Source of the DNA: Pseudoxanthomonas sp. PXM03
GTDB lineage: Bacteria; Pseudomonadota; Gammaproteobacteria; Xanthomonadales; Xanthomonadaceae
Reading direction: 5' to 3'
Length of the DNA stretch: 64,000 nucleotides
Assembly: GCF_014852005.1 (NCBI RefSeq)
Contig: NZ_JACVAU010000001.1
Location: forward strand, 890,001-954,000
Part shown: positions 48,749-55,051 of the stretch, one piece after another
Position numbering within the stretch: the first letter of the stretch is position 1
Layout: each line of letters starts with the position of its first letter
Notes under the pieces: model-generated
Databases searched by the model: none
Seen by the model: only the letters and a program-made list of their open reading frames with translations
What the model was told of the DNA's origin: nothing
Program-made: the position numbers and the translations under genes

Positions 48749-50959
48749 ATGACCCTGCCACGACTGATCGGCCTGCTTGCCCTGGCCCTGCCCTGTGCCT
48801 CCGTCCATGCCGTCGAGATCGACGGCCGCGTCGATCCTGCCGAATGGCAGGGCGCGCACCACGTCACCGACTTCCGCAAGACCCAGCCGCTGACCGGCGA
48901 GCCGGGTTCGTTGCCCACCGAGGCCTGGATACTGGCCACGCCGGACGGCCTGGCCATCGCCTTCCGCAACACGCACCCTGCCGCCGTGCCGCGCACGCGG
49001 CAGAGGGTGCAGCGCGATTTCGACGAACAGGTCGACCGCGTCAACGCGTTCATCGATTTCGATGGGGATGGGCGCACCGGTTATGCGTTCACCGTCAGCT
49101 CCACCGGTGGCATCGCCGACGAGGTCATCACCAACGAAAACCAGTTCAACAGCGACTGGGACGGCCAGTGGCGGCATGCCGTGGGCGAAGACGAGCAGGG
49201 CTGGAGCGTCGAACTGCTGATCCCGTGGCATACCGCGCCGATGCGCGATGGCACCGACGGACAGCGCACGCTGAAAGTGTTCCTGGCGCGCGTAATCGGC
49301 GTGACCGGCGAGCGCATGGCCTGGCCGAGCGCCAGCTTCGAGCGCCCGCGCTTCATGTCCGATTTCGCGTCCGTCACCGTGCCGCGTTATGACCAGTCGC
49401 TGCTGGCGTTGACGCCCTATGTGTCGGGCCTGTACGACAACGTGGGCCGGCGCAGCGACTTCAACGGTGGTGCGGACGTGTTCTGGAAGCCCAATGGTCG
49501 CTTCCAGCTCACCGCCACGGTGAACCCGGACTTCGGCCAGGTGGAGGCGGACGACCTGGTGGTGAACTTCAGCGCCACCGAGACCTTCATCAGCGACAAG
49601 CGGCCGTTCTTCACCGAGAACCAGGGCATCTTCGAGCTGACCACGCCGTCGGACGACAGCCAGCAGCTGTATACGCGTCGCGTGGGCAGTACGGGCGACA
49701 TCACGGCGGCGCTGAAGTTGAACGGCAGCCTGGGCAAGGCGAACTACGGCCTGTTCTCGGCCGACGAGGATGGCGAGTACGGAAGGAGCTTCCATGCGCT
49801 GCGCGTGGTGCGCGATTTCGAAAAGCAGAACCTCGGCGCGATGCTGACCCGTGTGGAGCAGGACGCCACCGACCGCGAGGCCACCGTGCTGGGCGTGGAC
49901 CACAACTGGCGGCCGACGGCGCGCTGGAACATCCGCAGCCGCCTGCTGGGCAGCCGCATCGACCAGGCCGGGGATCGCGCGCAGGACCTGGGTGCGACGG
50001 TGTGGGCCGACTACGAAATGGAGGACGGCTGGCGCCAGCAGTGGATCGCCATGCACTTCGGCAACGACCTGCAGATCAACGACTTCGGCTATCTCTCGCG
50101 CAACAGCACCAACTACCTGCATTGGGAAGTCCGCAAGCGGTTCACCGGGTTGCCCGATGCCTCGCGCTATTCCTCCAAGGACTGGCGCTGGCGGGTGAGC
50201 AGCAGCCACAACAACCACGGCGACAAGCTCAACGACCAGTTCCGGATGAGCCGCGAGGGCCAGCTGCGCAACGGCAGTTACGAATATGCCCAGATCAACG
50301 TCAACAGCGCGGGCCTGAGCGACCTGCTGCTGCGTGGCAACGGGGTGGTGCGGCTGCCGGCGAACTTCAATACGTACTTCGAGTTCGAGCGGCCGCGAAA
50401 GGGCGACTGGGCGCACGAGACGGAGCTGGAAACCTTCACCGGGGGGCTGGCGGGCAACCGCAAGCTGGGCGCGGGCGCCGGATACACCGCCACCTACTTC
50501 ATCAGTGATGCCTTCAGCATCTACGCCGGCGGCTATGCGCTGTACACCCCCGACTGGCTGGTATGGCAACGCGAGGATCTGGTGGGCGGCTTCAAGCGAC
50601 GGCAGTTCGACCTCAGTGCCGGCCTGGACTGGGTGGTCGATGACCGCCACGAACTGCGGGTGAAGATGCAGGCCATTGCGCTGGACGCGCGCGTGCAGGA
50701 TGCCTGGCGTTTCGATCCGCAGGGCTACGCGCTGGCGGCGACCGACACGGTGGAGGATTTCAGCGTGCGCAACCTGGGGTTCCAGGTGCGCTACCGCTAC
50801 GAGCTGGCGCCGCTGTCGTACCTGTACGTGGTCTATGCCCGCGGTGGCTACGAGCAGCGCACCGGCACCGAAGGGGTGGAGGACCTGCTGCAGGACAGCT
50901 TCAGCCTGCGCGACGACGAGCAGTTGGTGGTGAAGCTGAGTTACCGCTTCGAGATCTGA
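48749..50959 (+). CDS. DUF5916 outer-membrane protein with CBM9-like domain
   Basis: 736 residues from the ATG at 48749, with a signal peptide (LIGLLALALPCASVHA). The N-terminus (about 22-215) is a carbohydrate-binding family 9-like domain (IDGRVDPAEWQGAHHVTDF). The remainder (DUF5916) has the conserved NPDFGQVEADDLVVNFSATE and FTENQGIFELTT segments, then amphipathic beta-strands ending in LSYRFEI, as in an outer-membrane barrel. The function is unknown; binding or uptake of a glycan is possible. It is a single gene. Confidence 0.87.
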   Translation: MTLPRLIGLLALALPCASVHAVEIDGRVDPAEWQGAHHVTDFRKTQPLTGEPGSLPTEAWILATPDGLAIAFRNTHPAAVPRTRQRVQRDFDEQVDRVNAFIDFDGDGRTGYAFTVSSTGGIADEVITNENQFNSDWDGQWRHAVGEDEQGWSVELLIPWHTAPMRDGTDGQRTLKVFLARVIGVTGERMAWPSASFERPRFMSDFASVTVPRYDQSLLALTPYVSGLYDNVGRRSDFNGGADVFWKPNGRFQLTATVNPDFGQVEADDLVVNFSATETFISDKRPFFTENQGIFELTTPSDDSQQLYTRRVGSTGDITAALKLNGSLGKANYGLFSADEDGEYGRSFHALRVVRDFEKQNLGAMLTRVEQDATDREATVLGVDHNWRPTARWNIRSRLLGSRIDQAGDRAQDLGATVWADYEMEDGWRQQWIAMHFGNDLQINDFGYLSRNSTNYLHWEVRKRFTGLPDASRYSSKDWRWRVSSSHNNHGDKLNDQFRMSREGQLRNGSYEYAQINVNSAGLSDLLLRGNGVVRLPANFNTYFEFERPRKGDWAHETELETFTGGLAGNRKLGAGAGYTATYFISDAFSIYAGGYALYTPDWLVWQREDLVGGFKRRQFDLSAGLDWVVDDRHELRVKMQAIALDARVQDAWRFDPQGYALAATDTVEDFSVRNLGFQVRYRYELAPLSYLYVVYARGGYEQRTGTEGVEDLLQDSFSLRDDEQLVVKLSYRFEI

Positions 50960-50978
50960 GAGCGTCGCCCTCTTCAGG

Positions 50979-51316
50979 TGGCGCGCAAGGCCTGGATTCC
51001 GGCCCGTGAGTATCGGGAACCTTGCGCGCAAGGTTCCAGGGCTCGCGCGCGAGGCGCTACGGCTCGTACGCCACTGGCGGGAACGTCGCGGCTGGGTTTC
51101 CGCAACTTGCGCGCAAGATGCTGCGTCTGGCGCACCGGTATCGCGAGTCTCGCTCGCGAGTTTCCGGGTCTTGCGCGCGCGCCTGCGCGACCCGTGGCTC
51201 GGTATCGGCGCCTTGCACGCAAGTGTCCGCAGCTTGCGGACGGGACTCAGAAGGTCGCGCGCAAGCCTCGAGGGCTTGCAGGCGCGTCTCCGGACCTTGC
51301 GCACGGACCTCCGTCA
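50979..51316. repeat. About sixteen degenerate 21-bp tandem repeats with palindromic cores
   Basis: The only gene-free stretch over 300 bp (50960-51324). Units begin at 50979, 51000, 51021, 51042, 51063, 51084, 51106, 51127, 51149, 51170, 51191, 51212, 51233, 51254, 51275 and 51296. The spacing is 21 bp, with one extra base twice. The best core is CTTGCGCGCAAG (51021, 51106; near-copies at 51170, 51212 and 51254). Around 51016-51037 the core extends to a perfect 22-bp palindrome. A CTCGCGCGCGAG variant is at 51042. It lies between the 3' ends of two convergent genes. Confidence 0.85.
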
Positions 51317-51324
51317 GGTGGGCG

Positions 51325-51882
51325 TCACGGCGTCGCGGCCGGTGCCAGCTGCAGTTCCACGTGGCCGTCATTGATTCGCAGCGAGTCCGCGCCCAACGGC
51401 CCAGGCGCCTGGGCCAGATCCTCTTCGGTGAGCGTGTAGAGCGGCCGGGTGCGGGCGTACTCGCCGATCAGCTCCTGCAGGACCTCGCGCGATCCGCCGG
51501 GCAGGCCGCGACCGGCGGCGCCGGTGCCCAGGTGTTCGATCCGCGGATCCACCAGGTGCAGGCCGCGGGTGCCGGGGTCGTAGCGCAGTCCGCTGCTGAC
51601 CACCACGTTGCCGTTCTCCAGGCGTTCGCCCGTGGCCAGCGCGATGTCGTAGTCCATCTGCAGCGTCAACCGCTCACCGGGCGAGGGAATACTGACATCG
51701 GGATCGCTGAGGGTGAGCGATGCGAAGCCCTCCAGCAACGACTGTTCCATCGGGAAACCGGCGCGCGCCGCCGTTTGCAACTGGGCGGCGTTGAAGCGCA
51801 GCACGTTGCCGGTATCGGCAATGGCGATCACGGACAGGGAGAGCAGGGCGAGCAGCGCGATGCGCGAGAGCAGGTTCTTCAT
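51325..51882 (-). CDS. DUF1439 exported protein
   Basis: 185 residues with an N-terminal signal (LLSRIALLALLSLSVIAIA) but no lipobox cysteine. The DUF1439 domain shares the pattern LRYDPGTRGLHLVDPRIE and EYARTRPLYTLTEEDL with its neighbour at 51892, so the two are tandem paralogs (9 bp apart). Family members such as E. coli YceB are lipoproteins of unknown role. This copy appears to have lost lipidation. Confidence 0.85.
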   Translation of the reverse strand: MKNLLSRIALLALLSLSVIAIADTGNVLRFNAAQLQTAARAGFPMEQSLLEGFASLTLSDPDVSIPSPGERLTLQMDYDIALATGERLENGNVVVSSGLRYDPGTRGLHLVDPRIEHLGTGAAGRGLPGGSREVLQELIGEYARTRPLYTLTEEDLAQAPGPLGADSLRINDGHVELQLAPAATP

Positions 51883-54652: not shown

Positions 54653-55051
54653 TCAGGCTGCGGCGTCCTTCAGCTTCTTCAGCGGACGGACCTTGACCTT
54701 CACCGAGGCGGGCTTGGCAGCAAACCACTGCTCTTCCTTGGTGAACGGGTTGATGCCCTTGCGCTTCGGCTTGGCCGGCACGTTGACGGCGCTGATCTTC
54801 AGCAGGCCCGGCAGGGTGAAGGAGCCGGCGCCCTTCTTGTTGACGGAAGCGTGCACGGCGCTTTCCAGCGAGGCCAGCACGGCGCGGACGTCCTTGGCGG
54901 CGATCGCGGTCGCTTCGGCGATGTGGGCGACGAGGCCCGACTTGCTCAGCGCTTCCTTGATCGGCTTCGGCGCGGCCGGCTTGGCGGTGGCCTTCGGTGC
55001 AGCTTTCTTGGCGGCCTTCTTCGGCGCGGCCTTCTTGGTGCTCTTTGCCAT
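54653..55051 (-). CDS. HU-family DNA-binding protein with Lys/Ala-rich N-terminal tail
   Basis: 132 residues from the ATG at 55051. Residues 1-32 are Lys/Ala/Pro-rich (STKKAAPKKAAKKAAPKATA), like histone H1 tails. Residues 33-132 are an HU/IHF fold (IKEALSKSGLVAHIAEATAI; NPFTKEEQWFAAKPASVKVK). It is longer than the ordinary 90-residue HU and probably a second nucleoid protein. The upstream 262 bp (55052-55313) carry an A/T-richer stretch (TTTTTCTTCGGTTTTTTTCG) that may include its promoter. Confidence 0.9.
   Translation of the reverse strand: MAKSTKKAAPKKAAKKAAPKATAKPAAPKPIKEALSKSGLVAHIAEATAIAAKDVRAVLASLESAVHASVNKKGAGSFTLPGLLKISAVNVPAKPKRKGINPFTKEEQWFAAKPASVKVKVRPLKKLKDAAA

Follow-up and report, generated by a model that had tools for sequence, protein, structure and literature searches.

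A phased array of dyad-symmetric units between two convergent genes

The window analyzed here, a stretch of 64,000 nucleotides from Pseudoxanthomonas sp. PXM03, contains at positions 50978–51307 an array of 16 in-phase units with a 21-bp spacing, organized around CTTGCGCGCAAG and with dyad-symmetric cores. The array is framed by two genes whose 3′ ends both face it, and its features are as follows, with mismatches counted against the 12-nt core:

48749–50959, + strand: left neighbor, DUF5916 protein (Pfam), 3′ end towards the array
50978–51307: array of 16 in-phase 21-bp units, from self-similarity, profile, and core placement
50978–50989: core of unit 1, 2 mismatches
50999–51010: core of unit 2, 5 mismatches, followed by a +1 slip
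51016–51037: perfect 22-bp palindrome, which contains the core of unit 3 (from the sequence)
51021–51032: core of unit 3, 0 mismatches
51042–51053: core of unit 4, 2 mismatches, CTCGCGCGCGAG
51063–51074: core of unit 5, 5 mismatches, followed by a +1 slip
51085–51096: core of unit 6, 7 mismatches
51106–51117: core of unit 7, 0 mismatches
51127–51138: core of unit 8, 4 mismatches, followed by a +1 slip
51149–51160: core of unit 9, 3 mismatches
51170–51181: core of unit 10, 2 mismatches
51191–51202: core of unit 11, 8 mismatches, R-N4-Y kept
51212–51223: core of unit 12, 1 mismatch
51233–51244: core of unit 13, 4 mismatches
51254–51265: core of unit 14, 2 mismatches
51275–51286: core of unit 15, 4 mismatches
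51296–51307: core of unit 16, 4 mismatches
51325–51882, − strand: right neighbor, DUF1439-like protein (Pfam, 21.9 bits, below the 25.9 cut-off), 3′ end towards the array

The composite self-similarity of the 338-bp block at 21, 42, and 63 bp was 0.390. None of the other 338-bp stretches sampled with overlap from the window (n = 3144; best 0.387; mean 0.309, s.d. 0.022) reached this value, nor did any of 5000 first-order Markov sequences (maximum 0.373); the GC content is 0.692 for the block and 0.670 for the window. This agrees with the first-pass annotation, made from the sequence alone, which had described about sixteen 21-bp units with palindromic cores and the perfect 22-bp palindrome. 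Its count of two one-base slips needed correction, since core placement and the spacings between core-like anchors (43, 21, 64, 43, 21, 42, and 42) correspond to three +1 slips. The units are degenerate, with 8 of the 16 departing from the 12-nt core at no more than 3 positions and the remaining 8 at 4 to 8. A tandem-repeat check, which the same annotation had suggested, gave a divided answer: the 21-bp periodicity exceeds background, narrowly so for the best of the other stretches, but Tandem Repeats Finder at a minimum score of 40 did not report the block. Scanned with a 63-nt array profile at an E-value limit of 1, the window gave 11 matches, all within 50975–51304, a result obtained partly by construction because the 58 trimers from which the profile was built include two from the block itself, one from its G014 ortholog, and two from its G016 ortholog.

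Two further repeats were noted in the window. The hexamer GTATCG occurs three times in the block (51010–51015, 51138–51143, and 51202–51207), twice at slips and once at a regular unit, and is likewise found close to the first slip of the G016 ortholog. Elsewhere, a 27-bp tandem repeat, CTTCGGCGCGGCCTTCTTGGCGGCCGC, is present in 2.7 copies at 54965–55038.

A purine–pyrimidine rule shared by degenerate units

In the genome contig collection, two exact cores lie 18–24 bp apart in 68 stretches (L032–L099), isolated two-copy pairs included, with a 21-bp pair in 38, a 20-bp pair in 13, and each of the remaining five spacings in 2 to 6; 12 of the 14 two-core stretches inspected held only two copies. 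We considered in-phase units from 45 arrays that are located between anchors without themselves matching the core; there are 82, some of them orthologous copies and hence not all independent. Relative to the unit center, a purine was found at −2.5 in all 82 and a pyrimidine at +2.5 in 79, together with a pyrimidine at −4.5 in 74 and a purine at +4.5 in 73, around four central bases of mixed composition. Units that have lost the palindrome thus still follow R-N4-Y. The same rule is obeyed by all 16 units in the window when slips are set behind the unit located 21 bp from its predecessor, a first placement having left three units failing, and other offsets of the same grid satisfy R-N4-Y in 14 and 13 of the 16 units, with a 7-bp rhythm. 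The bare core TTGCGCGCAA is found at 7 places in the own genome, and its reversed control also at 7.

Other short motifs recur near these units. AATGTGAG or CTCACATT was seen within or next to arrays of Pseudoxanthomonas (L002, L013, L022, L134, and L201). In arrays of Lysobacter sp. M2-1 (L016 and L093), TTGCGATTGG units stand near CCAAAT(C) letters, so that adjacent units could pair too.

Patchy distribution across genomes

The search for further blocks, another step suggested by the first-pass annotation, was productive: the 63-nt profile matched the own genome 15 times, at about six places, and relatives in a patchy manner. Within the genus, 13 of 38 genomes had a profile match at E ≤ 1e−3, two of these (G026 and G035) by one weak match each. 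In the family, named Lysobacteraceae at NCBI, a two-core search matched 32 of 297 genomes and its reversed control 22, the latter at 1 or 2 places each and never more than 2. Matches at 1 or 2 places per genome are thus no more than expected by chance, and the analysis was restricted to the 10 genomes that have at least 4 close core pairs; the own genome had 2 matches in this search. Extended arrays with variable spacers were recovered from Pseudoxanthomonas, Lysobacter, Luteimonas, Aquabacterium, Accumulibacter, uncultured Burkholderiales, and a gammaproteobacterial MAG. Arrays are patchy in Pseudoxanthomonas, Lysobacter, Luteimonas, and some Burkholderiales. A phylum-wide profile search of 398 genomes at E ≤ 1e−6 and with stricter filters returned three matches, in the own genome, in G047 (same family), and in G448, the last of which was counted as false since the one stretch read there resembles heptad-rich coding DNA. 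Plasmids gave no blastn match at E ≤ 0.01.

Arrays with a 21-bp phase and related cores were also seen in Bacteroidales (L037:185–427), Spirochaetaceae (L081:3–119), and Verrucomicrobiales (L050:7194–7289), and a second Spirochaetaceae stretch (L034) likewise has a 21-bp phase; the spacers differ in all four, and we do not claim kinship with the arrays of these three groups. In one Pseudoxanthomonas MAG, two arrays (L049:1959–2568 and L086:5528–5948) align over 382 bp free of gaps with unit order kept, and their flanks have no mutual blastn match.

Arrays are intergenic and over-represented between convergent genes

None of the 55 arrays compared, orthologous ones included, shares more than the tolerated 30 bases with a called gene. 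Among the 42 with called genes on both sides (13 with no called gene on one side were excluded), 26 are flanked by tandem, 11 by convergent, and 5 by divergent genes; the corresponding numbers for 67 gaps that lack an array and span 300 bp or more are 43, 5, and 19. Convergent pairs are over-represented (11/42 vs. 5/67, nominal Fisher p = 0.011) and divergent ones fewer (5/42 vs. 19/67, nominal Fisher p = 0.057), with orientations taken from a home-made, unbenchmarked gene caller and a choice of background gaps that is arbitrary because an array lengthens its own gap. The position between two 3′ ends emphasized by the first-pass annotation holds for this block and is enriched in the class, but with tandem arrays outnumbering convergent ones (26 vs. 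11), this setting is favored rather than defining. A Pfam scan of 20 neighbor proteins of 10 arrays assigned 13 to families and 7 to none, with no shared theme.

Presence, absence, and rearrangement at shared loci

For the gene pair flanking the block, we examined 16 same-genus loci out of the 30 returned for the right-hand gene. An array is present in G000, G014, G030, and G016, where the gap measures 273–454 bp, and lacking at the other 12, where it measures 9–161 bp, so that the array is dispensable in those genomes. In a tree of the flanking genes, G016 groups with two array-less species (support 88/93) and two array changes are therefore needed; the starred branches alone force one. The arrays themselves vary in length, with two gaps, one of 64 bases (about three units) and one of 4, separating G000 from G014, for a net difference of 60, and about seven units fewer in G030 than in G014.

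Arrays occupy shared gaps in several species. Matching gaps in which both flanks are alike include L190/L196/L203, L191/L195/L199, and L198/L201, and at least one adjacent flank is alike for L194/L204 and L193/L200. At locus C (L194, L198, L201, and L204, from G000, G014, G016, and G020, respectively), the G000 and G014 arrays are unalignable next to a flank that is 95.7% identical; by eye, G014 looks like G016 and G000 like G020, a pattern reminiscent of an array exchange.

Cores change more slowly than spacers over longer distances

Between G014 and G016 at this locus, identity is 144/204 (0.71) in cores and 60/158 (0.38) in spacers, a difference with a Fisher p of 8e−10 that is nominal, as are all core/spacer p-values here, since the test treats sites as independent; core identity is also to be read with the tendency of alignment to pair core with core. 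The flanking genes of these two genomes have 0.37–0.38 synonymous differences (identity about 0.62), a level of change that lies somewhat above that of the cores and below that of the spacers. At three more loci that G016 shares, with the phase taken from the G016 copy, core vs. spacer identities were 125/168 vs. 71/130, 136/192 vs. 66/148, and 124/156 vs. 60/120. Cores and spacers differ as well for L047–L049 (p = 0.016 and 0.028) and L110–L112 (p = 0.006 and 0.001). Each unit keeps its own core variant, as in-register core identity exceeds that of other registers (0.27–0.38 for G014–G016, at most 0.44 for the remaining pairings, and 0.42 after pooling). Across five pooled ortholog pairs (the four with G016, plus L047–L049), identity peaks at ±2.5 (147/169, with R/Y kept in 162/169) and drops to 43/101 at ±10.5. 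Paralogs were not used for such rates, these being biased by the shared consensus.

Most closer pairs did not show a significant difference. This was the case at this locus for G000–G014 (150/168 vs. 112/130, p = 0.47) and G014–G030 (109/121 vs. 82/92), and elsewhere for all three locus A pairs, G000–G014 at locus B, L083–L095, and 4 of 6 Lysobacter rows. The more distant pair L194–L204 (G000–G020, locus C) also fails, with 24/33 vs. 11/20 or 87/119 vs. 60/92. On these alignments, cores at helical phase show site-wise constraint at the four G016-shared loci, with most closer pairs and L194–L204 not significant.

A candidate protein-binding array and its alternatives

We propose, with a rough probability of 0.5, that the block represents one copy of a chromosomal array, maintained and helically phased, whose dyad sites would be bound by a candidate homodimeric DNA-binding protein, and that the bound array has an architectural or roadblock role at gene ends. 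Each 21-bp unit, i.e., two helical turns, would represent one site, ideally AGSCTTGCGCGCAAGSCT, with R-N4-Y and a further Y and R two bases outward as the minimal site. Homodimers bound to consecutive units would line up along the same helical face, and a short nucleoprotein array might then form in the intergenic gap and serve as an architectural element, or as a roadblock or insulator, beside gene ends. What the sequences show directly is the array, its phase, the site rule, the shared chromosomal positions, and the slower change of cores over longer distances; that a protein binds, that it is a dimer, and that the arrays insulate or have an architectural function are what we infer. Counting against this reading are the closer pairs and L194–L204, in which cores and spacers do not differ significantly, the 12 of 16 same-genus loci that lack the array, a bare core as frequent in the own genome as its reversed control, and the other grid offsets that satisfy R-N4-Y in up to 14 of 16 units. 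A more elaborate version, in which a dedicated dimeric protein reads R-N4-Y by DNA shape and builds a chromatin-like filament on intergenic arrays of ~150–550 bp that insulates genes, with protein and arrays gained and lost together across Lysobacteraceae, is speculative and, as a whole, probably not correct.

The main rival is a neutral or selfish minisatellite-like element, generated by an old tandem amplification, spread by recombination, and now decaying, whose shared consensus mimics conservation. The scattered distribution (at least 4 pairs in 10 of 297 family genomes, a profile match in 13 of 38 genus genomes), the presence or absence of an array at one site, losses close to whole units, the non-significant core/spacer difference in most close pairs, and the gap-free 382-bp alignment of two arrays of one MAG despite unmatched flanks are all compatible with such an element. 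However, neither a shared consensus nor homogenization explains an in-register core identity of 0.71 against 0.27–0.38 out of register, and the R/Y rule survives in units without a palindrome, so that we consider this reading a serious one and yet distinctly less probable than a maintained site array. Alternatively, unit hairpins could act at the RNA level, in transcripts that run past gene ends, by terminating or protecting mRNA. The excess of convergent and paucity of divergent gaps, the AAAAAGCC or GGCTTTTT spacers of some arrays, and a weak pairing excess at ±5.5 to ±8.5 would speak for hairpins, but no significant strand-specific signal was seen: in 26 tandem arrays, inner G-U pairs on the sense strand are not significantly in excess of A-C pairs (64 vs. 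53, p = 0.36; all pairs 133 vs. 120), and sense T-runs equal A-runs (24 vs. 24). G-U being about as common as A-C is as expected for double-stranded DNA, and this equal tolerance of transitions on both strands would fit double-stranded DNA read by its shape or by groups common to purines. Core pairs showed no significant covariation among 324 anchored units, 8 loci had no Rfam match at the gathering threshold, and no terminator-like site was found in 50900–51400. The termination barrier envisaged by the first-pass annotation is accordingly not upheld in the form of a terminator, and an RNA-level function overall seems unlikely.

A loading site for gyrase or topoisomerase IV, comparable to E. 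coli BIME-2 or the Mu strong gyrase site, is less likely still. The GC power of the block at 10.4–10.9 bp (9.2) was reached by none of 629 window stretches, and the free 4-bp center of the units recalls the 4-bp stagger of the published motif (PMC6379681), whereas the 40-array mean GC power is 1.93 at 10.75 bp against 8.68 at 7 bp, and 10.75 bp was examined post hoc. In addition, gyrase is to our knowledge universal, and the arrays are patchy. The gyrase suggestion of the first-pass annotation therefore retains the helical GC signal of this block and loses its generality, since that signal does not extend to the arrays at large. An origin as a REP/BIME element mobilized by a RAYT transposase, for which the palindromic, extragenic, and clustered units would speak, is largely refuted and has very little probability left: no GT(A/G)G head appears in the 24-position profile of the 324 anchored units, the own genome has about six places instead of >100 copies, and Y1_Tnp genes occur in 35 of 38 genus genomes against 13 of 38 for arrays. 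Finally, a protein-coding heptad repeat, as the open frames on both strands might suggest, can be practically dismissed, with no homolog of the ORF at 50978–51436 among 1115 candidates scored, none of the 55 arrays overlapping a called ORF beyond 30 bases, and frames broken by the +1 slips and by the single gaps of 64 and 4 bases relative to G014. The Leu/Ala/Arg frames hence look like the artefact that the first-pass annotation took them for.

Noncoding DNA of this type, conserved at unit centers but not in the spacers and found at the same places in several species, can easily escape notice, as illustrated by the tandem-repeat finder missing the block and Rfam remaining silent at 8 loci. No description of such arrays was found in the literature searched, whose coverage leaves out most subscription journals. 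If a protein does bind them, these arrays would constitute an intergenic architectural system of Lysobacteraceae (Xanthomonadaceae).

Comparison with known systems

One study of REPs reports that those of X. campestris form large clusters and that GT(A/G)G-headed REPs occur in Stenotrophomonas and Xanthomonas (PMC2817692). The arrays resemble these REP/BIME elements in being extragenic palindromes in clusters, but differ from them in lacking a GT(A/G)G head, in their direct 21-bp phase, and in occupying few places per genome. Their presence does not track Y1_Tnp genes either, a set that may include RAYTs. Because the units are near self-complementary, their orientation, on which the REP/BIME alternation criterion depends, is hardly defined. 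The main text of the RepRanger paper contains the terms Lysobacter, Luteimonas, and Xanthomona- zero times (PMC12306157).

For strong gyrase sites, the motif is characterized by a 10.75-bp GC periodicity, extending over about 130 bp, and a 4-bp stagger (PMC6379681). Relative to this description, the arrays share with strong gyrase sites and BIME-2 a helically phased DNA, with GC power near 10.5 bp in the block, but averaged over 40 arrays, GC power at 10.75 bp is low. Heptameric quadruplex-forming repeats are reported to be enriched in Xanthomonas (PMC4692102). The arrays described here have a strong 7-bp periodicity (GC power 8.68, mean of 40 arrays).

Fis-type degenerate dyads have a G...YR...YR...C layout with an AT-rich center. 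The array units share this layout, including YR steps on both sides of the center, but their site is one base longer and its center GC-rich instead of AT-rich. The F-plasmid sopC is a centromere-like operator array made of tandem units that each carry an inverted repeat, a structure also seen in the arrays; in contrast to a single-locus centromere of the sopC/parS type, however, the own genome has arrays at about six places, and parAB was absent among the 13 of 20 neighbors (10 arrays) with a Pfam match.

Plasmid iterons are tandem protein sites of about two helical turns. The arrays differ from iterons in being found at several chromosomal places and in having palindromic units, and a replication initiator was likewise absent among those 13 of 20 neighbors of 10 arrays with a Pfam match. 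Like iterons, the arrays consist of tandem units about two helical turns long that resemble protein sites, and a helically phased, iteron-like protein-binding array, one of the roles that the first-pass annotation had suggested, is the best fit.
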